Shown here piece after piece: positions 4,046 to 23,763 of a stretch of 49,292 nt of DNA (the stretch's first letter is position 1; each line of letters starts with the position of its first letter). The DNA comes from an uncultured Alphaproteobacteria bacterium (lineage in GTDB: Bacteria > Pseudomonadota > Alphaproteobacteria > HIMB59 > GCA-002718135), in the NCBI GenBank assembly GCA_902569865.1, contig CACFVT010000005.1, positions 1 to 49,292 on the forward strand, written 5' to 3'. The notes beneath the pieces were generated by a model that saw nothing but the letters and a program-made list of their open reading frames with translations, had not been told where the DNA came from and did not search any database. A program made the position numbers and the translations under genes.

Positions 4046-4177
4046 AATTATCCCTAAATAAGCAAATTTTATTAAGCCTTACATCATAGAAATAGCTAAT
4101 CCAAGAAGAATTCTTGCTGTTTTTCTTAATTTCATAGGAAAATTTAACACCCTAGTATAGAAGAAAAAAATTCATTT

Positions 4178-5089
4178 ATGCTACAATCAAAAGAAGCTCA
4201 AATTCCTAATAATTTAGTATCATTGGCTAAAAAAACGCCTAATCTTTCAGCAGGAATCATTTGTGCTAATCATGACTCCTCAATGGAATCAGCTAAAAAA
4301 TCAGTTGAGTTAAATCTTATAAACCCGATTTTTATTGGAAACAAACAAGAGATCAATGAAAAGGCTGAAAAAATTGAATGGGATATAAATGCTTATGAAA
4401 TAATTAATTCTGCTAATGATGTAGAGGCTGCAATTATTGGGGCAGAACTTGGAAGAGATAATAAAATAAAAGTAATGATTAAAGGCAATCTTCATACAGA
4501 TGTTTTAATGAGAACGTACTTAAAAAAAGAATTTGGTCTTATTGAAGGAAAAAGATTAAGTCATATTTGGCACATGACAATTTTAAAAGATGATAAACCA
4601 CTTTTTATAACTGATGGAGCTTTAAATGTTGCGCCTCGTATTGATGTCAAAATGCATATACTTAAAAATGTTATTGAATTTGCAAACCAAATCGACATTG
4701 CAAAACCAAGAGTAGCTATCTTATCAGGCACAGAAGATCCCATTGAAAGTATGCCAAGTTCTGTAGAGGCAAAAGAGTTAATGGAACGTGCGAAAAATGA
4801 AAATATTAATGCTTATGTTCATGGACCTTTAGCTTTTGATAATGCTATTTCTCCAGAAGCTGCTGCAATCAAAAATATTTCTAATGAAGTTGCTGGAAAA
4901 GCTGATATTCTTTTGGTTCCGAATTTAGAAACAGGTAACGCTTTATCAAAAATCATGGTTTACTTTATGGGAGCTTGCGCTGCTGGTTTTATTGTTGGTG
5001 GTAAAGTTCCTGTTGTTGTAACAAGTAGAGCAGATAGTTCTGCATCACGAATAGCATCTATCGCAGCTTCCGTTATAGCTGCGCAATAG
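4178..5089 (+). CDS. pta: Phosphate acetyltransferase/butyryltransferase family protein
   Basis: C-terminal DILLVPNLETGNALSKIMVYFMGACAAGFIVGGKVPVVVTSRADS is characteristic of PTA/PTB enzymes. Confidence 0.85.
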   Translation: MLQSKEAQIPNNLVSLAKKTPNLSAGIICANHDSSMESAKKSVELNLINPIFIGNKQEINEKAEKIEWDINAYEIINSANDVEAAIIGAELGRDNKIKVMIKGNLHTDVLMRTYLKKEFGLIEGKRLSHIWHMTILKDDKPLFITDGALNVAPRIDVKMHILKNVIEFANQIDIAKPRVAILSGTEDPIESMPSSVEAKELMERAKNENINAYVHGPLAFDNAISPEAAAIKNISNEVAGKADILLVPNLETGNALSKIMVYFMGACAAGFIVGGKVPVVVTSRADSSASRIASIAASVIAAQ

Positions 5090-5991
5090 TGAAAAAAAAT
5101 AAATTAATAAATGTTGCTTTATTAGCAATTGGAGCAACTTTCTTTGGTTCATTTATGGGGGCTGGAGTAAAATTACTCTCTACTGATCTTCATCCAATCA
5201 TTATTTGTTTTTATCGATGCTTAATGGGATTGATGATTATTACTCCTTTTGTAGCAAGAAATAATTTTAAAGCACTTAAATCAAGTAACACCAAACTTCA
5301 ATTAATTAGAGCTTCAATAAATATAATTTCAATGATTTGTTGGTTTTCTGCAATTGGAATGATGCATTTTGAAAAAGCTACAGCTCTTGGATTTACAACA
5401 CCTTTATTTACAACTGTTTTAGCTGTTATTGTTCTAGGTGAGGTAATTCGCTTTCATAGAACAGCAGCTCTAATCTTAGGTTTTGTTGGAATTATTATTA
5501 TTGTTCGTCCTGGCTACATGCCTTTTGAATTTGGTACAGTATTGATGCTTGCTGCCTCTTTTAGTTTTTCTTTTGTTTTAATCTTAGTTAAAAAATTGTC
5601 TGACACTGATTCTAGTCTAACAATTATTTTTTATCATTTGCTATACATGACTCCTGTTTTTTTTATTATTTCTCTATTTTATTGGGAAAGCGTTAACTTT
5701 AATCAATTAATAATTTTTGCATTTATGGGTGCAGCAGGATTGTTATCACATTGGTGTTTAGCGCAAGCTTTCAAACTTTCTGATACTACTTTTGTGATGC
5801 CGCTTCAATTTACTAAATTAATATGGGCTTCTTTAATCGGATTATTTATATTTGCTGAACAACCAGACATTTGGACTTGGACTGGAGGTATAGTTATATT
5901 TATCTCTGTTCTCTATATTACTTACCGTGAAGCATTTAAAAAGAAAGGAACAAAAAAACCTATTCAAGTTGATAGAGCTATCATAAATTAA
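5089..5991 (+). CDS. DMT/EamA-family transporter
   Basis: About ten hydrophobic segments with the EamA repeat pattern (FYRCLMGLMIITPF, AILSF-like repeats). GTG start overlaps the pta stop by 1 nt. Confidence 0.85.
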   Translation: MKKNKLINVALLAIGATFFGSFMGAGVKLLSTDLHPIIICFYRCLMGLMIITPFVARNNFKALKSSNTKLQLIRASINIISMICWFSAIGMMHFEKATALGFTTPLFTTVLAVIVLGEVIRFHRTAALILGFVGIIIIVRPGYMPFEFGTVLMLAASFSFSFVLILVKKLSDTDSSLTIIFYHLLYMTPVFFIISLFYWESVNFNQLIIFAFMGAAGLLSHWCLAQAFKLSDTTFVMPLQFTKLIWASLIGLFIFAEQPDIWTWTGGIVIFISVLYITYREAFKKKGTKKPIQVDRAIIN

Positions 5992-6355: not shown

Positions 6356-7123
6356 TTATTTTGCGGTCCAACCACCATCTATCACTAAGGATGAGCCAGT
6401 AATCATAGAAGAGGCATTCGATGCTAAATATACTACGGCCGTTGCAATATCACTTTCAGTACCAAAACGTCCCAAAGGAATATTATTCATCATTGTTTTC
6501 TTAAATTTTTTATCTTCAAAAAATTTTTTTACCATTGGGGTTTCAACAAAAGTAGGGCAGACTGTATTTACTCGGATATTTTTTTTTGCCAAATCTAACG
6601 CCATCCCTCTTGTTAAACCTTCAAGACCAAATTTTGTCATATTATAAATACTTCTATTTGGTGCTCCAACTTTCCCTAATTGAGAAGACATATTGATAAT
6701 AGAACCACCTCTTGATTTTCTATTTTTTGACTTTAGCATAACTTTTGCAGCCATCTGCGCTACATGAAAAGCAGCTTTCATATTTAAATCCACTACATAA
6801 TCCATATCTTCTTTTTTAATTTTAGTAAAATGATCTGGTCGATTAGCACCTGCATTGTTTACTAATATATCTAAAGAAGAAACTTTATTAAATACGCTTT
6901 TTACATCTTCATAGTTTGAGACATCACATATATACGATTTACATTTTCTCTTAAGTTTTTTTATTTGTTTTTCAACATTATCTAAATCGCTTTTAGTCCT
7001 ACTAAGAATAATAAGATTGGCGCCTGCCTCAGCTAAAGCTACAGCACAAGCTTTACCAATACCCTTGCCAGCTCCTGTAACTAAAGCTGTTTTATTTTTT
7101 ACTTGTGTTTGCTGTAAATACAT
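6356..7123 (-). CDS. Short-chain dehydrogenase/reductase
   Basis: TGAGKGIG cofactor motif, NNAGANR, YNMTK active site, C-terminal ITGSSLVIDGGWTAK. Confidence 0.93.
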   Translation of the reverse strand: MYLQQTQVKNKTALVTGAGKGIGKACAVALAEAGANLIILSRTKSDLDNVEKQIKKLKRKCKSYICDVSNYEDVKSVFNKVSSLDILVNNAGANRPDHFTKIKKEDMDYVVDLNMKAAFHVAQMAAKVMLKSKNRKSRGGSIINMSSQLGKVGAPNRSIYNMTKFGLEGLTRGMALDLAKKNIRVNTVCPTFVETPMVKKFFEDKKFKKTMMNNIPLGRFGTESDIATAVVYLASNASSMITGSSLVIDGGWTAK

Positions 7124-7156
7124 TGTGTAAAATATAACATTAATATTAAATTCCTT

Positions 7157-8038
7157 CTAACCTTTTACTGCTCCAGCTGTTAATCCACTAACAATCTGTC
7201 TTTGAAAAAACAGTACAAAAAAGAATAATGGAGCAGTTGCTGAAACAACGGCTGCTACAGCATACATTACTTTACCTTCTTCTTGGACAGTACCTAGAAA
7301 ACTTGCAATTGCTGGAATCATTGTTTCATTTTCATCTGAAAGCAACATGGATGTAACTGTAAAATCATTGTAAGCAAGAAGGAAACTAAATAATCCAGTA
7401 GTGATTACACCTGGCCACATTATAGGAATGATCACATATCTAAATGCTTGAAATCTATTACAACCATCGCACATAGCGCTTTCATCTAAATCTTTTGGTA
7501 TGTTTAAAAAAAATGAATGTAGCATCCACAAAGTAAAAGGTTGGTTAATTGCAACAAGCACAATTATTGTTGTGGGCAGAATTCCCCAAACATTCCATGC
7601 AAAAAAAGGTTGAAGATATCCTGAAATCAAAGTCATATGAGGCATCGCACGAAAGATAAGACCTGCCATTAAAATCCAGAAGGCGTAGCGATAAGTAGAC
7701 CTTGCAAGAGCATAACCACCTAAAGTCCCAAAAGTAAGAGAAATTAAAACTGTAAAAAATACTACTATGCTTGTATTAATAACGGCGCGCCAAAATTCTT
7801 CTTCAATCCAAGAGCCATAATATCCACCCATAGTAAAAAAACTGCCTGTTTGTTTTTCAGTATGAAAGCCAAATATTGCATTTGACCAATCAGCTTTTGA
7901 AAAAAAATCAGCTTGTACTTTGAAGGATCCCCACAATGTCCAAATAAAAGGAAACATAGCAACAATCAACCAAAGAGCTACAAATATAAAAGCAATAATA
8001 CGAACTGGGGTTAATTTATTTTCAATTTTTGTATTCAC
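7157..8038 (-). CDS. Sugar-type ABC transporter permease (MalG-like)
   Basis: Multi-TM protein with an EAA-type loop (DESAMCDGCNRFQAFRYVIIPIMWPGV). Confidence 0.92.
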   Translation of the reverse strand: MNTKIENKLTPVRIIAFIFVALWLIVAMFPFIWTLWGSFKVQADFFSKADWSNAIFGFHTEKQTGSFFTMGGYYGSWIEEEFWRAVINTSIVVFFTVLISLTFGTLGGYALARSTYRYAFWILMAGLIFRAMPHMTLISGYLQPFFAWNVWGILPTTIIVLVAINQPFTLWMLHSFFLNIPKDLDESAMCDGCNRFQAFRYVIIPIMWPGVITTGLFSFLLAYNDFTVTSMLLSDENETMIPAIASFLGTVQEEGKVMYAVAAVVSATAPLFFFVLFFQRQIVSGLTAGAVKG

Positions 8039-8044
8039 AAATTC

Positions 8045-9079
8045 CTAACCTTTATTTTTTTCTTTAAAATCTCGCCATGTTCGAATTAGTACGGGCAAAA
8101 GTAAAATTGCTACACCAAAAATAGTAATCATAGATGTAGCACCTGCGGCGTTATAGAGAGGGTAAGCACTTTCTCGCAAATGATTCCATATTAACCACGA
8201 TATTGAGGTGGCGTGCGCTTCAGCTCTAAAACCTATGATTGGTTCAAAAACTCTAAAATTATCCATCAAAAGTATTAAAGTTATGAAAATAGCAAGTGGC
8301 ATTAAATGAGGAATAACAACGTGGCGTATTCTTTGAAATTTTGATGCTCCATCTATTGTTGCCGCCTCTATTGTTTCTTGAGGAACCGTTTGAAGACCTG
8401 CATAAAAAACAATAAAACTAAAAGGCATCAAATGCCAAATACCGTATACCATTAACATAATCCAGGTAAGCACAGGTGATGCTTTCAAGCTAAGAGAATT
8501 ATCATTAAATATTTTTTGGAGTGTAGCTCCAATCACACCATCACCGTCAACCATCCAGAAAAGTATCAATGAGCCAACAAGAGGTGTAACTATCATTGGA
8601 AGAAGAGATGCAAAAATTGTTGGACCTTTAAACATCTTTGGAAGATTGTTAACTCCAACGGCAACTAAAAAACCAAGAAATAAGACAAAGGGAGTAACTA
8701 TAAAGGTATAAGTAAGAGTGAAACTGAGCGCTCTATATAAGGGGTAATTATATAATTTTTTAACAAAAACTGTAAAACTATCCGAGCTCTTCCAAGCCTC
8801 TCCTAATTCATCAAATGCAAAATGCATTCTGTTTGAATACGTTTTAAATCCATTAAATTTACCAAGAGGTGCTTTTTCTTTTAACTTTGCGGAAGCTTCA
8901 GTATCCACAGATGTTGTTGTCTCACAACCAAAAGGATCACAATTTTCTGTAACAATTATTACTTGTTTATGTTCAATATGTAGAGATTGAATAAAAACAG
9001 AAACTATAGGTATTGCAATAAATAAAAACATTACGCTTAATGAAGGAAGAGAAAATAATAAGAATGTGCTGTGCTTCAT
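8045..9079 (-). CDS. Sugar-type ABC transporter permease (MalF-like), with a large periplasmic insertion after TM1
   Basis: EAA loop EAATIDGASKFQRIRHVVIPHLMPL. Roughly 85-aa hydrophilic segment between TM1 and TM2. Confidence 0.92.
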   Translation of the reverse strand: MKHSTFLLFSLPSLSVMFLFIAIPIVSVFIQSLHIEHKQVIIVTENCDPFGCETTTSVDTEASAKLKEKAPLGKFNGFKTYSNRMHFAFDELGEAWKSSDSFTVFVKKLYNYPLYRALSFTLTYTFIVTPFVLFLGFLVAVGVNNLPKMFKGPTIFASLLPMIVTPLVGSLILFWMVDGDGVIGATLQKIFNDNSLSLKASPVLTWIMLMVYGIWHLMPFSFIVFYAGLQTVPQETIEAATIDGASKFQRIRHVVIPHLMPLAIFITLILLMDNFRVFEPIIGFRAEAHATSISWLIWNHLRESAYPLYNAAGATSMITIFGVAILLLPVLIRTWRDFKEKNKG

Positions 9080-9109
9080 TATGCGATTTTAAATTACATA
9101 GAAAGATAC

Positions 9110-9137
9110 AAGGGGTTTTCAAATTTGAAAACCCCTT
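9110..9137. promoter_or_regulatory. Perfect 28-nt inverted repeat (RNA stem-loop) between the binding-protein gene and the downstream permease genes
   Basis: AAGGGGTTTTCAAATTTGAAAACCCCTT is exactly self-complementary. Confidence 0.85.
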
Positions 9138-9159
9138 TTTACTGATTTATTTATATTGA

Positions 9160-10401
9160 CTACAGATAACCTGCGTCTTTAGCAGCTGTTTCGTAAACAG
9201 CCTCTACATCACTAAGTGCTTGTTCAGCGCTCTCTGATCCCTTTAAAAAATCAACTAGCTCTGCACCTAATGCATTGTGCAGCAAGCCCATTTGAGCAAA
9301 CATTGGGTAAGATTTAGCACCGCCTTGAGCAGTTGCAGAAACTCCTGCTGCAGCTGGACCAGGTTTAAAACCATCAATTAACCAAATTGCATCATCATTA
9401 TTAGCAGCAACCATTTCTGAAGTCATACCACTTACAAGTGCTGCAAAAGTTGCTTCTGCTTCACTGTCAGACACGTTAGTAGCTATAGTTATTCCATCCC
9501 ACCATAAAGTTGCTCCTGGTATTGAACCACCAGTAACAGTTGGAGCTGCAGATAGAACAGTATTTGAAGTCACTTCAGCTGAAGAACCTTCATTATCTAG
9601 TATAACTCCTCCGCGAGAACCCCACATAAAGCCAATTGCCGCTTGACCAGCTTCCCATAATCCTTGCGTATCATCAGATGCCTGCGTTAAATGATCTTCG
9701 TGAGCATACTCTACAAGAGCTTTCATTGTTTCTAGAGCAGCAACACCTTTGGCATTATTAATAGATGCTTCAGCACTACCAGGCTTAAAGAATTCTCCAC
9801 CATGTGCTAGGTATATAGTGTTAAATACTTCACCAACATTCCATCCGACTTTGAGATTCATTACAAGTGGATGCTCCATGATACCAGCTGCACGTATTTT
9901 TTCAGCAGCAGAAATTACTTCATCATAAGTTGCTGGTATTCCATCAACTCCAGATTTTTCTAAAATATCTGTTCTATAATACATGTGCTGAGAATTTGCC
10001 ATAAAAGCTATTGCCATTATTTTTCCATCAACAGTTATCAGTTGGTTAGATTTTAAGTGCCCACCATATTTTTCAACTAAATCATCTAATGGTCTAACAA
10101 GCCCATCGTTCATTAATTGAACTAGAGTAGAGTTAGCTACAATAACTGAAGTATACTCTGCTGGATTTGGTGTTTGAGCAGCATTCATTATTTGACGTGC
10201 TTCGGTAGTATGATTTCGATTGAATTCAGAAGCAGATCCTGCACAATTACTTTCAGCAGAATTTGCTATTGCGTGAATTGCTGGAAAATCACTTGCTAGA
10301 ATTCGGATTGATTGCCCATTAGGTCCACAATCAGCTGCATACAATGATGAGCTGAAAAATAGGGAAATAAATCCAACTAATATTAATTTTTTAAATATCA
10401 T
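9160..10401 (-). CDS. ABC transporter extracellular solute-binding protein (family 1, sugar-type)
   Basis: Signal peptide MIFKKLILVGFISLFFSSSLYA; MYYRTDILEKSGVDGIPATYDEVISAAEKI; operon with two permeases. Confidence 0.92.
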   Translation of the reverse strand: MIFKKLILVGFISLFFSSSLYAADCGPNGQSIRILASDFPAIHAIANSAESNCAGSASEFNRNHTTEARQIMNAAQTPNPAEYTSVIVANSTLVQLMNDGLVRPLDDLVEKYGGHLKSNQLITVDGKIMAIAFMANSQHMYYRTDILEKSGVDGIPATYDEVISAAEKIRAAGIMEHPLVMNLKVGWNVGEVFNTIYLAHGGEFFKPGSAEASINNAKGVAALETMKALVEYAHEDHLTQASDDTQGLWEAGQAAIGFMWGSRGGVILDNEGSSAEVTSNTVLSAAPTVTGGSIPGATLWWDGITIATNVSDSEAEATFAALVSGMTSEMVAANNDDAIWLIDGFKPGPAAAGVSATAQGGAKSYPMFAQMGLLHNALGAELVDFLKGSESAEQALSDVEAVYETAAKDAGYL

Positions 10402-10479
10402 TTTTCCTCCCTATTAATTACCCTTAAAATAAATTGTTATGTTAAGAGAATTAATATTATAAATATTTATAATTAATAT

Positions 10480-10519
10480 ATTGCATTGTTTTGAATAAAT
10501 ATGCAATGTAATGAATAAT
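10480..10519. promoter_or_regulatory. Candidate operator region: imperfect 20-bp-spaced direct repeat in the divergent lacI/binding-protein promoter
   Basis: TGCATTGTTTTGAATAA (10482-10498) and TGCAATGTAATGAATAA (10502-10518) match at 14 of 17 positions; the region also contains ATTGCAT...ATGCAAT as inverted arms. Confidence 0.4.
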
Positions 10520-10541
10520 ATTTCGGTGGATAAAGGCATAA

Positions 10542-11543
10542 ATGAAAACTAAATTAAAGAATCCAACATCCCAGAATGTGGCCACATTAGCTGGTGTATC
10601 CCAGTCAGCAGTCTCTCGGTGCTTCACCAAAGGAGCCAGTATCTCAAGTCGCACAAAATTACGCGTCATCGAAGCTGCTAAAAAATTGGGCTATAAACAT
10701 CAAACTATTCAGCATTCTTTTTCTTCATCAGTGGATGGTGGGCTAGTGGGCGTAATATTACCCTATATCACCAATAGATATTATCCTGAAGTCCTAACTG
10801 AATTACATGAGGCTCTTCGAATGAGTGGGTACAGGATACTTTTGATTACAACCGATGATGGTGAAGAACTTGATAACAACTTAATTCAACCTTACCTAAA
10901 AGAGAGATTGGTTGCGATTGTTTCGGCTACAAAGCCTACGGATACATTTGTAGAAAATTGTTTATCCAAACAAATTCAACTTATCGCTTTTAATAGAAAT
11001 TGGAAAATACCCACATTGAGTTCTGTAGCTTGTGATCACAGATATGGTGGAGAAGCAGCGGCAGAACATTTCATTACCAATGGACATATTAATATAGGAA
11101 TAGTTGAAGGACCAACTGGATCCTTTGTAAGTAATGAAAGATGTAAAGGTTTTAAAAACCATTTTAAAAATTTAAACAAAATTAAACTTTTTCATGAAAG
11201 AGGAAATTTTACATATGAAGGAGGTTTCGAGTCAGCAAAAAAACTTTTAAAAAAAAATATTACAGCATTGTTTTGTGCTGACGATACTATGGCTTTTGGT
11301 TGCCTTGATTATATTAAAGAAAATACAAAATTAAATATCCCAAAAGAAATAGAGATAATTGGATATGATGACATATCAACAGCAAATTGGCATTCATATA
11401 ATTTAACAACAATTAGACAACCTATTAGACAAATGTCAAAGCTTGTTACCCAAATTATAGATGATAATATAAAGGATCCAGAATTTGAGCCTATTAATCA
11501 TGTAATACAAGGCAAATTTATTTATCGAAATACAACTAGATAA
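10542..11543 (+). CDS. LacI-family transcriptional regulator
   Basis: N-terminal HTH TSQNVATLAGVSQSAVSRCF, periplasmic-binding-like domain, ALFCADDTMAFGCLDYIKE and IEIIGYDDIS. Confidence 0.95.
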   Translation: MKTKLKNPTSQNVATLAGVSQSAVSRCFTKGASISSRTKLRVIEAAKKLGYKHQTIQHSFSSSVDGGLVGVILPYITNRYYPEVLTELHEALRMSGYRILLITTDDGEELDNNLIQPYLKERLVAIVSATKPTDTFVENCLSKQIQLIAFNRNWKIPTLSSVACDHRYGGEAAAEHFITNGHINIGIVEGPTGSFVSNERCKGFKNHFKNLNKIKLFHERGNFTYEGGFESAKKLLKKNITALFCADDTMAFGCLDYIKENTKLNIPKEIEIIGYDDISTANWHSYNLTTIRQPIRQMSKLVTQIIDDNIKDPEFEPINHVIQGKFIYRNTTR

Positions 11544-11555
11544 AAAATTAACAAT

Positions 11556-12686
11556 TCAAATTATATTTGAGGCTATTTTAGCACCTTTAACTAGGGAGTC
11601 TAATTTTTCATAACAAATTTTCTCGTCAACTTTTCCAAATCCAGCAAATGTACTAAAACCACAATCTGTACCTGCCATAATCTGATCTTTTGGAACAACA
11701 CTTGCAAATTGTCTAAGTCGATCTGAAACAACTTCAGGGTGTTCAACAAAATTCGATGTGGAATCAATAACCCCTGGAACAATAACTTTATCTTTTGGTA
11801 ATTTAATATTCTCAAACACCTTCCATTCATGTGCATGTCTTGGATTTGAAGACTCAATTAACAAGTATTTAGTTTTAGCTTTTAGAACAATTGGTAAAAT
11901 TTTCTCCAAACCAACATCAAAAGTATGAGGCCCTTCATAATTACCCCAGCAAATATGAATTCTAATTTGATCCTGTGGAACTGCTGCGAGAGAAGCATTG
12001 AGAGCTTCAATTTGTTTTTCAGCGCGATGTAAAAAACTTTTTTCATCCATATCTTTGAAATTCATATGTCTAGCTAAAGCCAAATCAGGACAATCAATTT
12101 GTAAATATAAATTTTTTGATGTAATTTTTTCATATTCATCAGACATTATTGAAGAGAGCTTTTCAAGATATTCATCATCATTTTTATAATATTTGTTTGG
12201 TAAAAAAACATTTATAACTCCTGGGGAAGCAGAATTCATAAAGCCGTTTTTATGGTTGTTTGATTTAAGAGCAGATGTAAAATTATTTATATCTTTTAAA
12301 AGATCACTATTTTTTTTAAGTGACAGCTCTCCAGTACAACAGGGACGGGTGTAAGTAGGCGTTCCACCACTTTTGGCAATTTTTTCTTTATATTCGGGAA
12401 ATGCATCCAAATCAGCAGGGGTTCTTCTTTCACTTTCTCCAGAAAAGCCATTTATTCTCTCTTTGACATAGGTAGCATAACTGATTTTACTCATTTCCCC
12501 ATCACTGATAAAATCAATACCAATATCTAATTGTTTTTTTACAATTTCATGCACATTTTGAGATACTACTTCATCAAACTCATTTAAATTAAAACTTTCT
12601 CCCTTATCTTTAGTAAAAAGAAATTCAGATAATATTTTTGAACGTGGTAAACTTCCAACATGGGTTGTTAAAATTTTCGTATTCAA
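11556..12686 (-). CDS. Cobalamin-independent methionine synthase (MetE C-terminal domain)-like zinc thiol alkyltransferase
   Basis: TTHVGSLPRS start; candidate Zn ligands H-I-C (HICWGNYEG), E (LLIESSNPRH) and C (GTDCGF). Lacks the MetE N-terminal domain. Confidence 0.85.
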   Translation of the reverse strand: MNTKILTTHVGSLPRSKILSEFLFTKDKGESFNLNEFDEVVSQNVHEIVKKQLDIGIDFISDGEMSKISYATYVKERINGFSGESERRTPADLDAFPEYKEKIAKSGGTPTYTRPCCTGELSLKKNSDLLKDINNFTSALKSNNHKNGFMNSASPGVINVFLPNKYYKNDDEYLEKLSSIMSDEYEKITSKNLYLQIDCPDLALARHMNFKDMDEKSFLHRAEKQIEALNASLAAVPQDQIRIHICWGNYEGPHTFDVGLEKILPIVLKAKTKYLLIESSNPRHAHEWKVFENIKLPKDKVIVPGVIDSTSNFVEHPEVVSDRLRQFASVVPKDQIMAGTDCGFSTFAGFGKVDEKICYEKLDSLVKGAKIASNII

Positions 12687-12699
12687 TGTTTATCTATCC

Positions 12700-13671
12700 T
12701 TAACCAGTTTTCATTAAAATTTGTTTCCATATTGCAGTTTCATCAAATAAAACCCACTCATTTTTTATACCTCTGGGACCAAATTCTGCATGAGAAATTC
12801 CCATTACATAAACTTCTGCTTGACTAGAATTGCCAAAATACCCAGGACCAGAGTGAATACCATTTAAAGACCATCTTATCGCTGCTTTTCTATATGCTGC
12901 AGGCTCATCCAGATAACTGACATGTTCAATTTTAAATGTCACTTCAGGAAAGGAAGAAAAAATTGATGACCAAAAAGATTTAACCTCGTCTACTCCATAC
13001 GCTTTAAGACCACTAGGTTGTTCTTGATTAATAGATCTGTCATAAAATTTTTCAATACTATCCAAATCCTTTTGAAATATAGTTTTTAATATTTCAGCAT
13101 ATTCATAACCAGTGTTATTTTTAGGCAAACTTAACTGGGTATATTTTAAATCTAGAGGTGTATTTTGATTAAAAGGTATAGAGCATTTTGTTACACCACC
13201 TTGCTTATCAATTAATGTTTTAGCATAGGTTTTTGGATCTAAATTTAACTGTCTGACTATTGCTCCCTGATCTCTAACCAACCATTCATCATAAACTTGA
13301 TTATTTTTACAAGCACAATCTGCTATAACTCTGTAAGATAGTTTAATTCCTGTGGCTTTTCCGTAAATTCCATCATTTAGATGAGTTGCTTTTGTTAAAA
13401 TACGATGCGAAGATAAATAACCATCATTTTCATTACCTATCCAAATAACATCCTCTCCAAGAAGTTGCCGATCTGGAAATTCGTCAAGCGTAGCATAAGT
13501 TGCTTTTACTACTGTATCAGGTCCGTAGATAACTCCATCAGGAGATCTTACCGGAATTCCCTTTGCATAATACTCTCTAATTGACTCAACATCTTTATCC
13601 TCCCAAATCTGATGGGTAATCTTAAGAATATAATCAGGCAGATCTTTAAATTTTTTATCAAATCCCTGCAT
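12700..13671 (-). CDS. SnoaL-like/NTF2-fold protein with two tandem domains
   Basis: Two SnoaL-like repeats (IREYYAKGIPVRSPDGVIYG... and IEKFYDRSINQEQPSGLKAYG...). Confidence 0.65.
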   Translation of the reverse strand: MQGFDKKFKDLPDYILKITHQIWEDKDVESIREYYAKGIPVRSPDGVIYGPDTVVKATYATLDEFPDRQLLGEDVIWIGNENDGYLSSHRILTKATHLNDGIYGKATGIKLSYRVIADCACKNNQVYDEWLVRDQGAIVRQLNLDPKTYAKTLIDKQGGVTKCSIPFNQNTPLDLKYTQLSLPKNNTGYEYAEILKTIFQKDLDSIEKFYDRSINQEQPSGLKAYGVDEVKSFWSSIFSSFPEVTFKIEHVSYLDEPAAYRKAAIRWSLNGIHSGPGYFGNSSQAEVYVMGISHAEFGPRGIKNEWVLFDETAIWKQILMKTG

Positions 13672-13675
13672 TAAA

Positions 13676-14647
13676 TTATTTTTTTTGACGAATTATAAAA
13701 ATACTACCCTTATCTCCACTTATATTTTTGAGACTCCTTGAAGAGTTTTTTGGGGGAGAAAAGGCATCTTTAGGGCCTATTTTAACCTTTGATTCATTAC
13801 ATGTAATTTCCCACTCACCCTCTAGGCATAAATAAACTTCAGACTCAGGCAAAGTATAAGTATGTATATGTGCATTTTCTCCATGCAATAGGGTAAGCCC
13901 AAAACCAGTTTTATGATCTATGTTAGGATTAAAATCTTTATTGTGAATATTGAAGCTATCTAAGTAATTTAAAATCGAATTTGAATTATAATGTTCATCA
14001 TCTAGAAAATATTTGTTTTGATCTACAGAACGAATAACAAATTTTTCAATCTCTTGTGATGTGTAGTGATCAAATTGATTTAATTCATTTTCTTGCAAGG
14101 GTTCAATTAATTTTTTTCCATTTGGTATTTCATTTTTATCTAAATCAATTAAAGAGTTATCATCTAGTAAAACCATACCAGTTTCTTTTGCTTTTTTTAA
14201 TAAAGATGGGGTCCAAGTAATCACACCAGGGTCATTTTCACCAAGTACAACAAACATTAAAGCTTGTTGATCACTAACATTTTGAAAACCTCTAAACATG
14301 TTAGTCGGAAAAGAAGCAACATCACCTCTATGCAATACTATTTCCCCTTCTTTGCCATCGGTACCCCAGTAGAAACGCCATGATCCAGAAAAAATTAAAA
14401 AAACTTCAGCAGTTGTATGACTATGTAATCCTGAACCGTTCATTGGGGCTGCACTTACAGCCCCTATATTAAAACCGTGTGCTTCTGCTATTTTGACATT
14501 TTGTTTTGTATCTTCACTAACACCAGGTCCAACTATAGAATAATTTAATCTATCCTGATGACCCTTTAACTTACCTTCTACAAAAGGAATCTTACTGGGA
14601 ATAAGATCATTAAATCTTGCTAAACGTGTATCTATATTTATTGACAT
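13676..14647 (-). CDS. Double-cupin protein
   Basis: Two cupin motif-1-like segments: GSGLHSHTTAEVFLIFSGSW and ENAHIHTYTLPESEVYLCLEGEW. Confidence 0.8.
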   Translation of the reverse strand: MSINIDTRLARFNDLIPSKIPFVEGKLKGHQDRLNYSIVGPGVSEDTKQNVKIAEAHGFNIGAVSAAPMNGSGLHSHTTAEVFLIFSGSWRFYWGTDGKEGEIVLHRGDVASFPTNMFRGFQNVSDQQALMFVVLGENDPGVITWTPSLLKKAKETGMVLLDDNSLIDLDKNEIPNGKKLIEPLQENELNQFDHYTSQEIEKFVIRSVDQNKYFLDDEHYNSNSILNYLDSFNIHNKDFNPNIDHKTGFGLTLLHGENAHIHTYTLPESEVYLCLEGEWEITCNESKVKIGPKDAFSPPKNSSRSLKNISGDKGSIFIIRQKK

Positions 14648-14667
14648 TTTAAGAAAAATTATATTTT

Positions 14668-14703
14668 ATTCATTTTTAATGAATAATATTCAAAATATTG
14701 AAT
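14668..14703. promoter_or_regulatory. Two adjacent inverted repeats in the divergent cupin/SnoaL promoter
   Basis: ATTCAT-N5-ATGAAT (14668-14684) and ATTCAA-N4-TTGAAT (14688-14703). Confidence 0.35.
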
Positions 14704-14755
14704 AAATCAATTTAATATTTTGTCTAAATTGTGAGTAACTGAAATATAAAGAATT

Positions 14756-15847
14756 ATGACAACCATTGAAAATTTTAAAACTGGAATCAAAAAAGAAGGA
14801 AGTACTGAAGTAATTAATTTAGACCCAAAGATTAATATAGCAAATAAAAAAGAAATAAGAATTCTTTTAAAAAATATAGCAGAATCTAATTTAGAAAATA
14901 TTAATAAAAATATTAATGATGCCTATCATGATGATGCAGAAATAAGGGCTTTTCATCCACTTAATGACTTAAAAGGAGTTTCTGAAATATCAGAAATATT
15001 ATGGAAACCACTTATAAATGCATTTCCCGATCTTGAAAGAAGAGATAACCTAATTCTTGGTGGCGCTTTTCAGGATAAAATTTTTGTTTCAACAATAGCT
15101 CATTTAACTGGGACTTTTGTAAATCCATGGCTTAATGTTCCTGCTCATGGCAAAACAATACATTTAAGAATATGTGAAGCACATCAAATTAAAGATAATA
15201 AAATCATTCAATCACATATTCTAATTGATACATTAGATTTTATTCGTCAAGCCGGTTTATGGCCATTTAACAAATCCTTGGGCACAGAAGGTATGTGGCC
15301 TGGGCCAATAACAGGTGATGGTACAACATTTGAAAATATGGATAATGAATTATCAATCAATTCGATGAATCAAGCTTTAACAATGCAGAGAAGTTTAAAT
15401 ATAAAACCAGAAACGGATCCCGGATCAACACCTGAATATGTCAGAGATAAATTACTAAATCATCCTCAAAAAGATTTTTGGCATCCTAAAATGATGTGGT
15501 ACGGACCATGCGGCATTGGTACAGCGAGAGGTTTAAAAGGATTTGTGGATCATCATCAATTACCTTTTAGACTTACATTCAAAGAGAGGGATTACTGGAA
15601 AATTGGTCATTATATAGAGATAGCAGATGGTAATTATTCGATGACATCAGGCTGGCATAGTATCGAATGTATTCATGGTTCAAGTGAATGGCTAGGGTAC
15701 GAAGCAACAAATAAGTCATTAACAATGAGAGTAATGGATTTTTATTTGCATCATGAGGGTTTGATAAGAGAAAACTGGGTTCCAATAGATATAGCACACA
15801 TTTTGCATCAAATTGGAATTGATGCTTTCAATCTAGTAAAAAAATAA
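14756..15847 (+). CDS. SnoaL-like (ester cyclase/polyketide cyclase-like) protein with two tandem domains
   Basis: NTF2/SnoaL-like features: YHDDAEIRAFHPLNDLKGVSEISE...FPDLERR and the corresponding second half. Confidence 0.65.
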   Translation: MTTIENFKTGIKKEGSTEVINLDPKINIANKKEIRILLKNIAESNLENINKNINDAYHDDAEIRAFHPLNDLKGVSEISEILWKPLINAFPDLERRDNLILGGAFQDKIFVSTIAHLTGTFVNPWLNVPAHGKTIHLRICEAHQIKDNKIIQSHILIDTLDFIRQAGLWPFNKSLGTEGMWPGPITGDGTTFENMDNELSINSMNQALTMQRSLNIKPETDPGSTPEYVRDKLLNHPQKDFWHPKMMWYGPCGIGTARGLKGFVDHHQLPFRLTFKERDYWKIGHYIEIADGNYSMTSGWHSIECIHGSSEWLGYEATNKSLTMRVMDFYLHHEGLIRENWVPIDIAHILHQIGIDAFNLVKK

Positions 15848-15908: not shown

Positions 15909-17195
15909 ATGACTATTTCATATATCAAAAAAGCAGATAAAACAGCCTCTTCAGATGAAGCAGAAACTCGTAAAAGAGTTCAAGATGTATTAAATGAAAT
16001 TGAATCAAGAAGAGATGAGGGTATAAAAGATATATCTCGTAAATTTGATAATTATGAAGGTGATGTAATTGTTTCTGAAGAAAAAATTGAAGAAGTTATT
16101 AAGTCTCTCGATCAAAAGGTAAAAGATGATGTTCAATTTTCTTATGACAGAGTAAGAAGTTTTGCTGAGCATCAATTAAAACACCTGAATAATGATTTTG
16201 AAGTCGAATTATCACCAGGATTGTTTGCAGGCCAAAAACTGATTCCTGTTAATAGTGTTGGTTGTTATGTTCCTGGTGGTCGTTATAATAATATTGCATC
16301 AGCAGTAATGAGTATTACAACAGCAAAAGTTGCTGGTGTAAAAAATGTTATTGCGGCAAGTCCTCCGAAAGATGAAAATGGGGCTAACCCAATAATTATT
16401 TACACGGCAAATTTATGTGGTGCTGATGTTATTATGAATATTGGCGGTATTGGAGCAATAGGTGCTTTTGCTTATGGCTGTTTTGGTAATCCTGAAGTTG
16501 ATATGATTGTTGGCCCAGGCAATCAGTATGTTGCTGAAGCAAAAAGAATTTTATACGGGAAAGTAGGAATTGATTTATTTGCAGGACCAACTGAGATAGG
16601 AATTATAGCTGATCACACAGCAGATAAAGAAATGATTGCTGTTGATTTAGTAGGACAAGCAGAGCATGGACCGAACTCCCCTGCTTGGCTATATTCCACT
16701 GATCAAAAATTATGTGACTATGTTATTCAAAGAGTACCTGAATTAATTGCTGCACTTCCTGAAACGTCAAGAAATAATGCTGGAGCAGCATGGCGAGATT
16801 ACGGAGAAGTTATTCTATGTGATACGAATGAAGAGTTATGTGAGATTAGTGATCAATATGCACCTGAACATTTAGAAGTACAAGCAGAAAATTTGAATTG
16901 GTGGCTTGAAAAATTAAAAAACTATGGATCTTTATTTTTAGGTGAAGAGACAACTGTTGCTTACGGAGATAAATGCTCAGGTACTAATCATATTCTTCCA
17001 ACAAAAGGGGCAGCAAAATATACGGGCGGTTTATTTGTTGGTAAGTTTATTAAAACAGTTACTTTCCAGCGTATGTCAAAAGAATCAAATAAAGAAGTTG
17101 GTGCAGCAGCTGCTAGAATTTCTCGGTTAGAAGGAATGGAAGCACACGCTAGAACAGGAGATGCTCGTTTACGAAAATACGGATTTCAAAACTAA
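15909..17195 (+). CDS. hpsN: HisD-family dehydrogenase, likely sulfopropanediol 3-dehydrogenase (HpsN-like)
   Basis: HisD superfamily core (GCYVPGGRY, IVGPGNQYVAEAKR, AGPTEIGIIAD, QAEHGPNSPA, YAPEHLE). C-terminus GTNHILPTKGAAKYTGGLFVGKFIKTVTFQRMS..EGMEAHARTGDARLRKYG recalls the HpsN-type branch. Not in a his operon. Confidence 0.65.
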   Translation: MTISYIKKADKTASSDEAETRKRVQDVLNEIESRRDEGIKDISRKFDNYEGDVIVSEEKIEEVIKSLDQKVKDDVQFSYDRVRSFAEHQLKHLNNDFEVELSPGLFAGQKLIPVNSVGCYVPGGRYNNIASAVMSITTAKVAGVKNVIAASPPKDENGANPIIIYTANLCGADVIMNIGGIGAIGAFAYGCFGNPEVDMIVGPGNQYVAEAKRILYGKVGIDLFAGPTEIGIIADHTADKEMIAVDLVGQAEHGPNSPAWLYSTDQKLCDYVIQRVPELIAALPETSRNNAGAAWRDYGEVILCDTNEELCEISDQYAPEHLEVQAENLNWWLEKLKNYGSLFLGEETTVAYGDKCSGTNHILPTKGAAKYTGGLFVGKFIKTVTFQRMSKESNKEVGAAAARISRLEGMEAHARTGDARLRKYGFQN

Positions 17196-17196
17196 A

Positions 17197-17598
17197 TTAT
17201 TTATCTTCTAGCTCACCTTTCTTGCGCATTTCTTTTCTAATATTCGTTGCAGAAATTTTATGTATTTCTGTTCCTAAGTCATGTTCAGTAAATGTGTACC
17301 CTACGCCCCTACCATAGGATATATCAGTAATGTTAGGCACCTTAATCACTACATACTCTCTACCTTCTTTATATCCATGAGTTTTCAGGCCTTCCATTAT
17401 ATTTTTTTTTACTTCTTCAAATTGGAATGGATTATCTGATTGGCCATCTACACCAGCATCTACTCCACCTACATCACGGTACATAATGCAAACCTGTCCA
17501 GTTTTTTGCAATGCTCTTTTAAATAATTCTGTATGACCATCATGCCAAGGCTGCCAACGTCCAAGCATCTCTACAGTAGGTTTTTTCCAATCAAACAT
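17197..17598 (-). CDS. Small HxGH-type nucleotidyltransferase-fold protein (133 aa)
   Basis: EMLGRWQPWHDGHTELFKRAL nucleotidyltransferase motif and KISATNIRKEMR (S-T-x-I-R-type motif). Confidence 0.8.
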   Translation of the reverse strand: MFDWKKPTVEMLGRWQPWHDGHTELFKRALQKTGQVCIMYRDVGGVDAGVDGQSDNPFQFEEVKKNIMEGLKTHGYKEGREYVVIKVPNITDISYGRGVGYTFTEHDLGTEIHKISATNIRKEMRKKGELEDK

Positions 17599-18085
17599 TT
17601 TTAATTTTCTTAGCTAACAATTTTATTTCATCATCAGTTAAAAAACTCGTTATGTGCTGGTTAATATTGCTTGGCTCTTCAAACATTTTCGTTGTATCAT
17701 CAAATTTCTTACTAGTCGAAAGAGATTGTGCATCAAATGGAAGATTGTTAATTTCATTAAGTTGATTTAATTTTTCAGTTACTACTCGTCCTTCCTTAAT
17801 AGTATCCATCCAAATAACATAATCAGCATCAAATGCTTTTCTTGCTTTCTCTGTAGGTGCTACAAAGTCACACACAACCCATCTGCCATTATTTTTTTCA
17901 AAATCTGCAAATGTCTTCATTCTATTAGCTTGTCTCATTCTACCTTCGATTTCAAAATCCCAATCATTGGCATATTTACGAACAAAATCAGCATTGTACC
18001 AAGCACAGTTATCCAAATGCTTTACTAGTCTTTCAGATAACCATGTTTTGCCAGACCCAGGTAAGCCACAAACCAATATTTTCAT
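17591..18085 (-). CDS. APS kinase (CysC)-like P-loop kinase
   Basis: Walker A GLPGSGKTWLSERL; NADFVRKYANDWDFEIEGRMRQANRMKTFADF and WVVCDFVAPTEKARKAF follow the CysC pattern. 8-nt overlap with the downstream nucleotidyltransferase ORF. Confidence 0.75.
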   Translation of the reverse strand: MKILVCGLPGSGKTWLSERLVKHLDNCAWYNADFVRKYANDWDFEIEGRMRQANRMKTFADFEKNNGRWVVCDFVAPTEKARKAFDADYVIWMDTIKEGRVVTEKLNQLNEINNLPFDAQSLSTSKKFDDTTKMFEEPSNINQHITSFLTDDEIKLLAKKIKNV

Positions 18086-18217: not shown

Positions 18218-19012
18218 ATGATTTCAACAAATCCCTTTGCAGAATTGTCACTAACCTTCCCGTCCTTTTTAATGCAGTTATTTGTTATATTTATGATACT
18301 TTTAGTTATTATTGGCACTGTTATGGATATAATCCATAAAAAAAATGTAAAATATTTTTTTCAAAATGCGAAAAAAGCAAAACTTCAAGCTAAAACAGAA
18401 GTTAGTGCGGGCGAAAAAACATCTATAGTTCTAAAAACAGTAGCTCATGAAATATTGACAACTTCTGAATTAGGCTCAGGAAAAAGAAGAGTGGCCCATC
18501 TATTAGGTATGTACGGAACTATTATTTTCTGGATTTCTTCCGTTATTATGATCTTTTGTTATTCTTCAACAAATATAGTTACACCTACTTACTGGCCAAT
18601 CTTATGGCACATAGGGGCTTTAATGACTTGTCTTGGTGGATACTGGTTTTGGTTTTTTCTAAGAGTAGATGTTTCTGCAGAAGCTTTCCCTTGGTACCGA
18701 ATCATTCAAGCTGACTTATTTGTATTAGCACTTATTATTACTTCAACTTTAGCTCTTGTATGGTCCTTTTTACAATTCTCAAATATTAATGTTTGGGATA
18801 CTTTATTTTTAGCTTTATTTGGAATATCTAACTTAGTTTTGTTTGGAGGAATATATTGGTCTAAATTTGCTCATATGTTTTATAAACCAGGCGCAGCAAT
18901 ACAAAAAAATTTAGCTGAGGCTGATGGTTCAAGAGATAATCTTCCGCTACCTTCAAATAAACCAAAACAATTTGGTTTAGGAATTAAAAGAGAAGCACCG
19001 AAACATTATTAA
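18218..19012 (+). CDS. aprM: AprM-type membrane protein, predicted membrane partner of APS reductase
   Basis: Multi-TM protein directly upstream of aprBA on the same strand. Confidence 0.75.
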   Translation: MISTNPFAELSLTFPSFLMQLFVIFMILLVIIGTVMDIIHKKNVKYFFQNAKKAKLQAKTEVSAGEKTSIVLKTVAHEILTTSELGSGKRRVAHLLGMYGTIIFWISSVIMIFCYSSTNIVTPTYWPILWHIGALMTCLGGYWFWFFLRVDVSAEAFPWYRIIQADLFVLALIITSTLALVWSFLQFSNINVWDTLFLALFGISNLVLFGGIYWSKFAHMFYKPGAAIQKNLAEADGSRDNLPLPSNKPKQFGLGIKREAPKHY

Positions 19013-19052
19013 AAAATTATGAAAAAAATTAATAAAAAAAGGAAAAAATAAA

Positions 19053-19523
19053 ATGTCAACTTTTGTATATATGACTAAATGTGATGGATGTGGACACTGT
19101 GTTGATATTTGTCCTTCTGATATAATGCACATTGATAAAACGACTCGTAGAGCCGTTAATATTGAGCCCAATATGTGTTGGGAATGTTATTCATGTGTAA
19201 AAGCATGTCCCAATGAAGCAATTGATGCAAGAGGTTATGCAGACTTTGCTCCAATGGGTCATAGTGTGAGAGTTTTGCGTGAAGAAGAAAAAGGAACAAT
19301 TTCATGGAGAATAAAGTTTAGAAATGGAACAGAAAAAAATTTTGAATCTCCAATCACAACAAAACCCTGGGGAGTATATATTCCAAAACTAGCTGATAAA
19401 GAATTACCAACAAAAGAAGAGATAGATTCTGAGCTTTTATACTTAGAGCCTAATGGTCTTAATATTGATACAGGTCTTCCGAAAATAAAAAAGAGTAGCT
19501 TTAAAAAGGGTGTTTATTACTGA
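19053..19523 (+). CDS. aprB: Adenylylsulfate (APS) reductase beta subunit
   Basis: Two [4Fe-4S] motifs, CDGCGHCVDICP and CWECYSCVKACP; typical AprB start MSTFVYMTKCDGCGHC. Confidence 0.96.
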   Translation: MSTFVYMTKCDGCGHCVDICPSDIMHIDKTTRRAVNIEPNMCWECYSCVKACPNEAIDARGYADFAPMGHSVRVLREEEKGTISWRIKFRNGTEKNFESPITTKPWGVYIPKLADKELPTKEEIDSELLYLEPNGLNIDTGLPKIKKSSFKKGVYY

Positions 19524-21382
19524 TGGCAAAAATTAAAACAGTTTATGAGAATTGTGATGTCCTAGTAGTAGGTGGAGGAATGGCAGGAACTGGAGCTGCT
19601 TTTGAGGCAAGACACTGGGGTAGAGATTTAAAAATTATTTGTGTAGAAAAAGCTAATATTGATAGAAGTGGTGCTGTTGCTCAAGGTTTGTATGCAATTA
19701 ATTGTTATATGGGTATGCAGTGGGATGAGAATCAACCAGAAGATCATGTCAGGTATGCCAGAAATGATTTAATGGGAATTGTACGTGAAGATCTTGGTTA
19801 CGATATGGCACGTCATGTTGATTCTACTGTTCATATGTTTGATGATTGGGGCTTACCAATGATGCGCAATGAAAAAACAGGACGCTATCTAAGAGAAGGT
19901 AAGTGGCAAATAATGATTCACGGGGAAAGTTACAAACCAATAGTAGCAGAAGCAGCAAAAAAATCAGCGGACAAAATTTACAATAGAATAATGATTACAC
20001 ATCTCCTTATGGATGAGAGTAAAGAAAATAGAGTTGGTGGTGCTGTTGGTTTTAATATGCGTACTGGGAATTACCATGTCTTTAGAGCTAAAGCAGTAAT
20101 AGTAGCTGCTGGTGGTGCATCTCATATTTTTAAACCTCGAGCTGTTGGGGAAGGAATGGGTAGAACTTGGTATGCGCCTTGGAGTAATGGATCGGCTTAT
20201 GCTTTGCCTATTGCTGTGGGAGCAAAAATGACACAAATGGAAAACAGAATTGTTCTAACGAGATTTAAAGATGGTTACGGTCCAGTTGGCGCTTATTTTC
20301 TTCATCTTAAGACTTATACTCAAAATGGTAATGGAGAAAATTATGAGAAAAAATGGTATGAAAAAACAAAAGAATTAGTTGGTGAATATATAGATCATGT
20401 TCCTGTTCCTACATGTTTACGAAATCACGCTTTTATTGAAGAGGTTAAAGCTGGTGGTGGTCCAATACACATGGTTACTAAAGAAGCTTTTCAAGATCCT
20501 CACTTAGAAACAGTTGGTTGGGAAAACTTCTTAGGTATGACCGTTGGTCAAGCAGTGGTATGGGCATCTCAAGATATTGATCCAAAATATACAAATCCTG
20601 AACTAACTACTTCTGAGCCCTATGTTATGGGGTCACACGCAACATGCTCAGGTGCATGGGTAAGTGGACCTGAAGATTTATCTCCTCCAGAGTATTTTTG
20701 GGGGTACAACAGAATGCTTACAGTTGACGGTTTGTTTGGTGCAGGTGATACTGTTGGTGGAAGTGCACATAAATTTTCTTCTGGATCATTTACCGAGGGA
20801 CGTTTAGCTGCAAAAGCTGCCGTTAAATATATCAAAGATCTTGGAGATGAAGAAATAGAAGTTAATGAAGAACAGTGTGCTAATTTTAAAGATATTATCT
20901 ATAAACCACTTGAAAATTATAAAGTTGGTAGAAATGAAATAACAAGCGGCACAGTGTCACCAAGTTATATTTTACCTATACAAGGACTTCAACGTCTTCA
21001 AAAAATAATGGATGAATATGTTGGTGGAGTTGGAGTTAATTATATGACAAATGATAATTTGCTAAAAAAAGGAATTGAGCATTTAAATATTTTACAAGAA
21101 GACCTTGAAAATATAGGAGCTGAAGACTATCATCAACTTATGCGTGCTTGGGAATTAAAGCATCGTACACTAACTTCACAATGTGTAGCAGAACATACTC
21201 TTTTCCGTGAAGAAACAAGATGGCCTGGATATTATTATCGAGGTGATCATATGAAATTGGATGATGAAAATTGGCATTGCTTAACAGTATCAAGAAGAGA
21301 TCCTAAAACAGGTAAATTTACATTGGAGAAAGCACCTCTTTATCATATCGTTGATGAAAAAGAAGAAAATGAATCTGCTTGA
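19523..21382 (+). CDS. aprA: Adenylylsulfate (APS) reductase alpha subunit
   Basis: FAD motif CDVLVVGGGMAGTGAAFEARHWG; GSHATCSGAWVSGPEDLSPPEYFWGYNRM; TRWPGYYYRGDH. Confidence 0.97.
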   Translation: MAKIKTVYENCDVLVVGGGMAGTGAAFEARHWGRDLKIICVEKANIDRSGAVAQGLYAINCYMGMQWDENQPEDHVRYARNDLMGIVREDLGYDMARHVDSTVHMFDDWGLPMMRNEKTGRYLREGKWQIMIHGESYKPIVAEAAKKSADKIYNRIMITHLLMDESKENRVGGAVGFNMRTGNYHVFRAKAVIVAAGGASHIFKPRAVGEGMGRTWYAPWSNGSAYALPIAVGAKMTQMENRIVLTRFKDGYGPVGAYFLHLKTYTQNGNGENYEKKWYEKTKELVGEYIDHVPVPTCLRNHAFIEEVKAGGGPIHMVTKEAFQDPHLETVGWENFLGMTVGQAVVWASQDIDPKYTNPELTTSEPYVMGSHATCSGAWVSGPEDLSPPEYFWGYNRMLTVDGLFGAGDTVGGSAHKFSSGSFTEGRLAAKAAVKYIKDLGDEEIEVNEEQCANFKDIIYKPLENYKVGRNEITSGTVSPSYILPIQGLQRLQKIMDEYVGGVGVNYMTNDNLLKKGIEHLNILQEDLENIGAEDYHQLMRAWELKHRTLTSQCVAEHTLFREETRWPGYYYRGDHMKLDDENWHCLTVSRRDPKTGKFTLEKAPLYHIVDEKEENESA

Positions 21383-22552: not shown

Positions 22553-23752
22553 ATGGAAAAAGAAATTTATAAATTCATAGATAAAGAAAAGCTAAGTGTT
22601 GTTAGTGAGGATATAGAAAAAGCACATGGTCTTCCTAATGAATGTTATCTAAATGGACCTTATACTAAAATAGAACGTAAAAAAATTTTTGAAGAAAAGT
22701 GGGTTACAATAGGTGTCGCAAGCTCAGTCCCAAATACAGGGGATGTTAAGCCTTACGATCTACTTGGTATTCCCCTACTCATAGTTAGAGATAAACAAAA
22801 GAAAATTAGAGTTTTTCATAATGTTTGTAGTCATAGAGGATATAAGTTAGTTAGTAAAACTTGTGCTCTTAAAAATATATTAAGATGTCCTTATCACTCA
22901 TGGTCATATGACTTGGAGGGAAACTTAATTGCCACGCCTCATTTAGGTGGAATAAATAAACATGAACATCAGGATTTTGATAAATCCAAAAGTGGATTAA
23001 AAGAAGTGCAATCATCTGTTTGGCTTGACTTAATCATGGTAAATATTTCAGGGAATGAATTACCTTTTGAAAAATATATAGAACCGCTTGAAAATAGATG
23101 GTCTGACTTTTGGACGAAACAAGATCAAGAAATGATCTGTCATGCTCAAGATTATGGATATTTCAAATTAGAAGCAAAATGTAATTGGAAATTTGCAATA
23201 GAAAACTATTGTGAAAGTTATCACTTACCTTTCGTTCATCCTGATCTAAATGCCTATTCAAAAATTGATGATCATTATCATATACAAGGACTACCTAACC
23301 GCTTTGCTGGACAAGGCACACTTGTCTATAATCCTAGATTTGAAAATAATGAAAAATTTCCAACATTCCCTGGATGGAAAAAGGGGAAAGAAGAACATGC
23401 TGAATACGTCGCTCTATTTCCAAACGTAATGCTTGGTATTCACAAAGACCATTATTATGCTTATTGGTTAGAGCCTGTTGCACATAATTTTACTAAGGAA
23501 CATATGGAAATTTATTATGTTGGTGAAGAGGCTGCTCTTGATGATTCATATAAATCGTTAAGAAAACAAAATTTTGAACAATGGCATAGCATTCAAACTG
23601 AAGATTTAAATATTATTGAAGGTATGCAGGAAGGAAGGAATTCACCTGTTTACAATGGTGGTAATTTTTCTCCAGTTCTTGATAATCCTACTCACCATTT
23701 TAATAAGTGGGTAGCTACTGCATTAACTGATAATGATTTTTCAAAAAATTAA
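22553..23752 (+). CDS. Rieske-type ring-hydroxylating/N-demethylating oxygenase alpha subunit
   Basis: Rieske ligands CSHRG...CPYHSW; mononuclear Fe motif ENYCESYHLPFVH. Confidence 0.93.
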   Translation: MEKEIYKFIDKEKLSVVSEDIEKAHGLPNECYLNGPYTKIERKKIFEEKWVTIGVASSVPNTGDVKPYDLLGIPLLIVRDKQKKIRVFHNVCSHRGYKLVSKTCALKNILRCPYHSWSYDLEGNLIATPHLGGINKHEHQDFDKSKSGLKEVQSSVWLDLIMVNISGNELPFEKYIEPLENRWSDFWTKQDQEMICHAQDYGYFKLEAKCNWKFAIENYCESYHLPFVHPDLNAYSKIDDHYHIQGLPNRFAGQGTLVYNPRFENNEKFPTFPGWKKGKEEHAEYVALFPNVMLGIHKDHYYAYWLEPVAHNFTKEHMEIYYVGEEAALDDSYKSLRKQNFEQWHSIQTEDLNIIEGMQEGRNSPVYNGGNFSPVLDNPTHHFNKWVATALTDNDFSKN

Positions 23753-23763
23753 ATAATAATTAT

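Follow-up and report, generated by a model that had tools for sequence, protein, structure and literature searches.

The stretch of DNA analysed here, called the window, comprises 49,292 nucleotides of contig CACFVT010000005.1 from an uncultured alphaproteobacterium of the HIMB59 lineage. Between positions 7145 and 15843 it carries eight genes in which a MetE-like protein (METE), two tandem SnoaL proteins (SnoA and SnoB) and a double cupin (CUP) accompany an ATP-binding cassette (ABC) importer and a LacI-family regulator:

7145-15843, no strand assigned: cassette of permB, permA, SBP, LacI, METE, SnoB, CUP and SnoA, the block absent from relative G011
7157-8038, minus strand: permB, MalG-like ABC permease (PF00528; MalG is the best family match)
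8045-9079, minus strand: permA, UgpA-like ABC permease (PF00528; 43-100% identical across syntenic loci)
9160-10401, minus strand: SBP, solute-binding protein of the sugar/polyol type (PF01547)
10542-11543, plus strand: LacI-family regulator (PF00356 and PF13377)
11556-12686, minus strand: METE, 376 aa, TTG start, predicted MetE-like zinc methyl/alkyltransferase without the folate domain (PF01717 only)
12700-13671, minus strand: SnoB, tandem SnoaL/NTF2-fold protein (PF07366 twice)
13676-14647, minus strand: CUP, bicupin (PF07883, Cupin_2)
14756-15847, plus strand: SnoA, second tandem SnoaL/NTF2-fold protein, divergent from the METE operon (PF07366 twice)

An initial annotation, made from the sequence alone, had described a three-gene operon on the minus strand opposite a divergent two-domain SnoaL gene, and the open reading frames (all four found at these coordinates), the gaps of 13 and 4 nt within the tight METE-SnoB-CUP operon and the Pfam domains all agree with that description. 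The profile of SBP matches sugar-binding proteins, including MalE3, SmoF and a sorbitol-binding protein. In comparison with the related locus L055, the ratio of nonsynonymous to synonymous substitutions (dN/dS) is about 0.06-0.11 for METE, SnoB, CUP and SnoA, indicating strong purifying selection on the four genes, and about 0.03 for the dehydrogenase that follows SnoA.

The divergent promoters CUP|SnoA and SBP|LacI have in common an AT-rich palindrome, ATTCAW-N3-5-WTGMAT, whose exact matches across the whole window are confined to these two places:

10501-10516, no strand assigned: operator-like palindrome ATTCATTACATTGCAT between SBP and LacI, with a one-mismatch copy at 10481-10496
14668-14703, no strand assigned: operator-like pair between CUP and SnoA, ATTCATTTTTAATGAAT (14668-14684) and ATTCAAAATATTGAAT (14688-14703)

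The same palindrome lies in the divergent promoter of a second pair, SnoA2|SnoB2, that some relatives carry. It was found in 61 of 64 orthologous CUP|SnoA regions and, counted as distinct sequences, in 34/36, 30/33 and 20/23 promoters of the CUP|SnoA, SBP|LacI and SnoA2|SnoB2 classes, counts that are not independent of its discovery because the motif was first recognised in promoters of the cassette itself, in the window and in related genomes. A fairer test is given by the third promoter class together with the control set, in which the motif was missing from all 58 divergent promoters that lie elsewhere in these loci; dinucleotide shuffles of the same promoter regions gave a mean of 0.2-0.4 matches. 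Since the palindrome is common to the divergent promoters of the cassette and absent from the other divergent promoters, the cassette very probably forms one LacI regulon, in which its own LacI would be the obvious regulator. SnoA and the downstream dehydrogenase gene run in the same direction from the CUP|SnoA promoter.

The limits of the cassette were revealed by an empty site in G011. The flanks of this site match the window at 16347-15844 (94%) and 7144-6738 (92%), and positions 7145-15843, a cassette of 8.7 kb, are absent as one block. The join (locus L195, G011:C3, positions 11390-11401) shows a 12-bp AT-rich overlap, which fits a deletion or an insertion by short homology. Two genes that border the cassette in the window stand side by side in G011:

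6356-7123, minus strand: dehydrogenase of the short-chain dehydrogenase/reductase (SDR) family belonging to the module (adh_short_C2 in Pfam), flanking the cassette here
15909-17195, plus strand: HpsN-clade dehydrogenase of the HisD type, GRYNN variant (520 bits to HpsN 8v35)

The LacI gene before the block and the HpsN-like gene after it, at 10542-11543 and 15909-17195, both on the plus strand, are as first annotated, and the G011 gap covers exactly the eight genes, in keeping with the earlier view that the block is functionally linked to LacI and the ABC importer next to it. Presence and absence were scored in 60 relatives and the genome of the window, 61 in all. METE is present in 42 of them, all 42 having SnoA as well; SnoA was found without METE in three more genomes, and in both of those examined (L200 and L201) the contig stops before the expected METE. 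The cassette is absent from G037, a 99%-complete relative in a single contig. The eight genes thus behave as one unit of gain and loss, and we are highly confident that the block is a single regulated catabolic cassette.

Conservation of the gene neighbourhood, initially named as a check on the proposal, is extensive: the gene order is kept in about 80 SAR11-type relatives or loci and in several other alphaproteobacterial families (roseobacters, rhizobia), and the same gene set occurs in Pelagibacteraceae (L118-L129). Together with the conserved zinc ligands of METE and the purifying selection, this exceeds coincidence by a wide margin. A fuller module with MalK, extra SnoaL genes, an alpha/beta-hydrolase and an RraA aldolase is found in Ruegeria, Octadecabacter, Marinovum and further alphaproteobacteria, and related modules without METE, some with an amidase or an HpcH aldolase, in Paracoccus alcaliphilus, Labrenzia, Alloyangia, Novosphingobium, Deinococcus and Priestia. 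The SDR gene adjoins the HisD-type gene in Ruegeria, Octadecabacter, Sulfitobacter and Labrenzia. Because the smallest form seen, in Sulfitobacter, consists of transporter, HpcH aldolase, HisD-type enzyme and SDR, the HisD-type enzyme, SDR and aldolase look like the metabolic core, and METE, the SnoaL proteins and the cupin like a substrate-specific front-end. Literature searches for this gene combination returned nothing relevant, and the AEGEAN-169/HIMB59 genome papers examined do not mention these families, which agrees with the initial statement that no known pathway combines these parts. The core of the cassette also lies on a contig labelled Flavobacteriaceae (L053, VMCO01000101.1), with protein identities of 76-85%; this contig is probably mis-binned.

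The residues of METE bear on its chemistry. Of the zinc ligands, H244, C246 and C342 occur in all 107 family members and E278 in 104, and S12, E64 and D198, the equivalents of S433, E484 and D599 in E. coli MetE (residue roles from PMC7857596), are invariant in the 107. Since both sets are conserved, METE should hold a homocysteine-type thiol on zinc, and methyl (alkyl) transfer to homocysteine is favoured over chemistry of the coenzyme M (CoM) type. The H-x-C/E/C zinc ligands and the missing N-terminal half had been recognised correctly at the outset: a full-length MetE joins an N-terminal folate-binding part to the catalytic half, and the 376 residues of METE match PF01717 only. The proposed likeness to CoM-type alkyltransferases, on the other hand, is not supported, given the invariant homocysteine residues. 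In this regard, METE resembles MesA-MesD (Price 2021, PMC7857596), which are also stand-alone MetE catalytic halves with the same zinc H-C-E-C and homocysteine S/E/D residues, but it scores far below the curated methionine-synthase models (104 bits at best against a cut-off of 406), its gene shares a catabolic LacI regulon with those for the SnoaL proteins and the cupin, and no MesX gene was seen beside it; the MesX family (DUF1852, PF08908) had no match in the 61 genomes, a search in which the control set was equally silent. In the tree, the METEs of the cassettes form two well-supported clades, one of SAR11 type and one of roseobacter/rhizobium type.

Homologues of METE also occur in other settings. 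In sphingomonads they adjoin a SnoaL_4 protein in loci with aminomethyltransferase, MetF, PurU, FolD and LigAB, a one-carbon/O-demethylation setting that we count in favour of a demethylating role. The idea that a SnoaL gene always stands beside METE was rejected, as it fails in four of five haloarchaeal loci and at several alphaproteobacterial METE loci outside the cassette. The cassette copies do follow it, and so does Halobellus limi, an archaeon on whose plasmid (L192, 2753-9146) five consecutive 'ester cyclase' (SnoaL) genes directly precede the METE homologue. Within such aminomethyltransferase/MetF/PurU/FolD/LigAB loci of Novosphingobium and Croceicoccus (L190, 7995-9520; L193, 7998-9514) the homologue overlaps a SnoaL_4/NTF2 gene, possibly representing an unrecognised step in aromatic O-demethylation. 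On a plasmid of Rhodococcus sp. NJ-530 (L191, 7989-12351) it overlaps a 2-oxoglutarate/iron oxygenase gene, followed by phytanoyl-CoA-dioxygenase and HD-domain genes that resemble the PhnY/PhnZ phosphonate pair. A full-length homologue (34%) is encoded at 4002-5201 of a 'Bacteriophage sp.' record from human faeces (H41, MT835538.1).

Folds were predicted for two partners of METE. The AlphaFold2 model of SnoB, with a mean predicted local distance difference test score (pLDDT) of 93.9, comprises two confident NTF2 domains that match single SnoaL, AclR, IdmH and limonene-epoxide-hydrolase structures (3kkg, 2gey and 6hnn among them). Each half has the fold of the SnoaL/AclR/IdmH polyketide cyclases and hydroxylases, but SnoA and SnoB are tandem two-domain proteins in a catabolic context, and none of the solved structures among the best matches spans both halves. 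The model of CUP (pLDDT 91.2) has a bicupin fold like that of oxalate decarboxylase (OxdC) and quercetinase, with a template-modelling score (TM) of about 0.5-0.6 but only about 14% identity. The complete site of those enzymes, with three His and one Glu, is not found, the third His being absent from the CUP alignment; HxHxxxE in the N-terminal half (H75, H77, E81) is the only part of the metal site kept in all members, so a dioxygenase or decarboxylase label is unjustified. Searches of the PDB with single SnoaL or cupin sequences gave no matches, whereas profiles did.

Altogether, these data are best explained by a LacI-regulated system that imports a small polyhydroxylated metabolite, resembling a sugar or polyol and probably bearing a methyl (or small alkyl) group, and begins to degrade it. 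To this reading, in which homocysteine accepts the methyl or alkyl group, we assign a probability of roughly 45%. The ABC importer would take in the substrate, which LacI would sense, and isomerisation, hydration or C-C/C-O steps with little need for cofactors may fall to the bicupin and the two tandem SnoaL proteins. METE would activate homocysteine on zinc and load it with a methyl (alkyl) group taken from the substrate or from an intermediate. The HisD-type enzyme could convert CH2OH into carboxylate in a four-electron step, and the SDR could oxidise a secondary alcohol. Where relatives carry the fuller module, its alpha/beta-hydrolase would open an ester or lactone, and RraA or an HpcH aldolase would free a keto acid such as pyruvate. 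The sugar-type SBP, the aldolase and hydrolase partners in relatives and the catalytic Glu-His and zinc residues, which the HisD-type enzymes retain, speak for this proposal. Our confidence in any named substrate is low. Of the initial suggestion of degradation fed by the adjacent ABC system, the catabolic cassette with its importer stands, and the leaning towards a sulfonate is weakened.

Several observations weigh against the proposal. The residues that bind homocysteine are no proof that METE transfers a methyl. Otherwise complete modules without METE exist in Paracoccus alcaliphilus and Labrenzia, so METE is not essential to the core chemistry, and the METE homologues in four of the five haloarchaeal loci viewed lack SnoaL genes. 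No alpha/beta-hydrolase, aldolase or transporter ATPase gene adjoins the window's own cassette, in a genome that is 59% complete and where further missing genes were not counted as evidence. A more specific version, an undescribed surface-ocean pathway in which a methylated metabolite of the sugar or polyol kind is first processed by the tandem SnoaL proteins and bicupin and METE then passes its methyl group directly to homocysteine, so that the use of carbon also feeds methionine supply, is tentative and somewhat doubtful; if true, it would be a new coupling of marine-metabolite breakdown to methionine supply in streamlined cells. We regard the cassette as a new, testable catabolic system made of known enzyme families. 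It recurs in SAR11-type bacteria, Pelagibacteraceae and roseobacters, the groups that consume most dissolved organic matter in surface water. With a shared operator, a clean empty site and a conserved MetE-like enzyme at hand, the identity of the substrate is open to direct test.

The zinc and homocysteine residues that METE shares with Mes proteins would also be expected of a core methionine synthase that merely hitchhikes in the cassette and supplies methionine, catabolism being left to SnoA, SnoB, CUP, the HisD-type enzyme and SDR. The modules without METE fit this idea, as does the report that SAR11 lacks both MetE and MetH (PMC12366255). We consider it rather unlikely, because METE lies inside the operator-linked operon and never occurs without SnoA in 42 genomes; moreover, the absence of the cassette from the 99%-complete G037 means that METE is not the general methionine synthase of the order. 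Unlikely too, and slightly more so, is the transfer by METE of a larger alkyl group, from an epoxide or another activated carbon, to a thiol, with SnoaL proteins acting like limonene-epoxide hydrolases. METE shares with epoxyalkane:CoM transferase the MetE-type zinc site for thiol alkylation without the N-terminal half, it matches the 2-hydroxypropyl-CoM lyase of Xanthobacter weakly (29% over 164 residues), and the structures matched by the SnoaL fold include limonene-epoxide hydrolases. That identity covers only part of the protein, however, a CoM acceptor would not require the invariant S12, E64 and D198, and the cassette contains no monooxygenase or epoxide-forming gene.

Degradation of a sulfonate such as 2,3-dihydroxypropane-1-sulfonate (DHPS), with the neighbouring HpsN and the taurine and sulfite genes of the window, is improbable. 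The window-type dehydrogenase does group with Pelagibacter and Paracoccus HpsN (100/99 support), being 71-72% identical to the Pelagibacter protein, and taurine-type genes (Xsc, alanine dehydrogenase, Pta-like) and AprBA lie within the window. The dehydrogenase gene lies outside the cassette, however, at a site where other genomes carry a HisD of the separate GKFPM clade: 40 genomes have such a copy, 46-50% identical to the window's, six have the window type and none has both. In solved HpsN, His126 of the motif G-R-Y-A/S-H contacts the sulfonate (PMC11382572); every HpsN examined has GRY(A/S)H, but all seven window-type sequences read GRYNN, with Asn in place of His126. The GRYNN enzyme is present in G011 too, where the cassette is missing, so the change is independent of the cassette, and the simplest reading of these sequences would be an in-place swap of one alcohol-to-acid dehydrogenase for another, with altered substrate choice. 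The sulfonate substrate initially proposed from the HpsN-like neighbour is therefore weakened, since the gene is external, replaces the native HisD and has lost His126. Known DHPS catabolism (HpsN with HpsO/HpsP; PMC11382572, PMC11131964) shares the HpsN-clade enzyme next door, but a DHPS-type operon is arranged as TRAP-hpsN-SDR-ADH, with a tripartite ATP-independent periplasmic (TRAP) transporter and an alcohol dehydrogenase (ADH), and the importer here is a sugar-type ABC system. 'HpsN-like' genes that lack His126 should consequently be tested before a metagenome survey takes them as a sign of DHPS degradation. Finally, a biosynthetic polyketide-type locus, suggested by the SnoaL name, family and fold, is very improbable, as no polyketide synthase was seen in the syntenic loci viewed and LacI, importer, dehydrogenases and aldolases indicate catabolism.

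Other genes of the window deserve a brief description. Genes for taurine-type sulfonate metabolism and sulfite oxidation surround the cassette at 1590-5089, 18218-21382 and 28515-30290, and comprise alanine dehydrogenase, an omega-aminotransferase, a phosphotransacetylase-like protein, AprB/AprA and Xsc, several of them scoring over NCBIfam cut-offs. Beside the dehydrogenase, at 17197-18085, are two small genes, one AAA_18 kinase-like and one nucleotidyltransferase-looking (no Pfam match at 1e-8), and CysD/CysNC-like genes take this position in other relatives. At 22553-25806, a Rieske oxygenase gene lies beside one for a flavin mononucleotide (FMN)/pyridine-nucleotide oxidoreductase, an arrangement common to some relatives.

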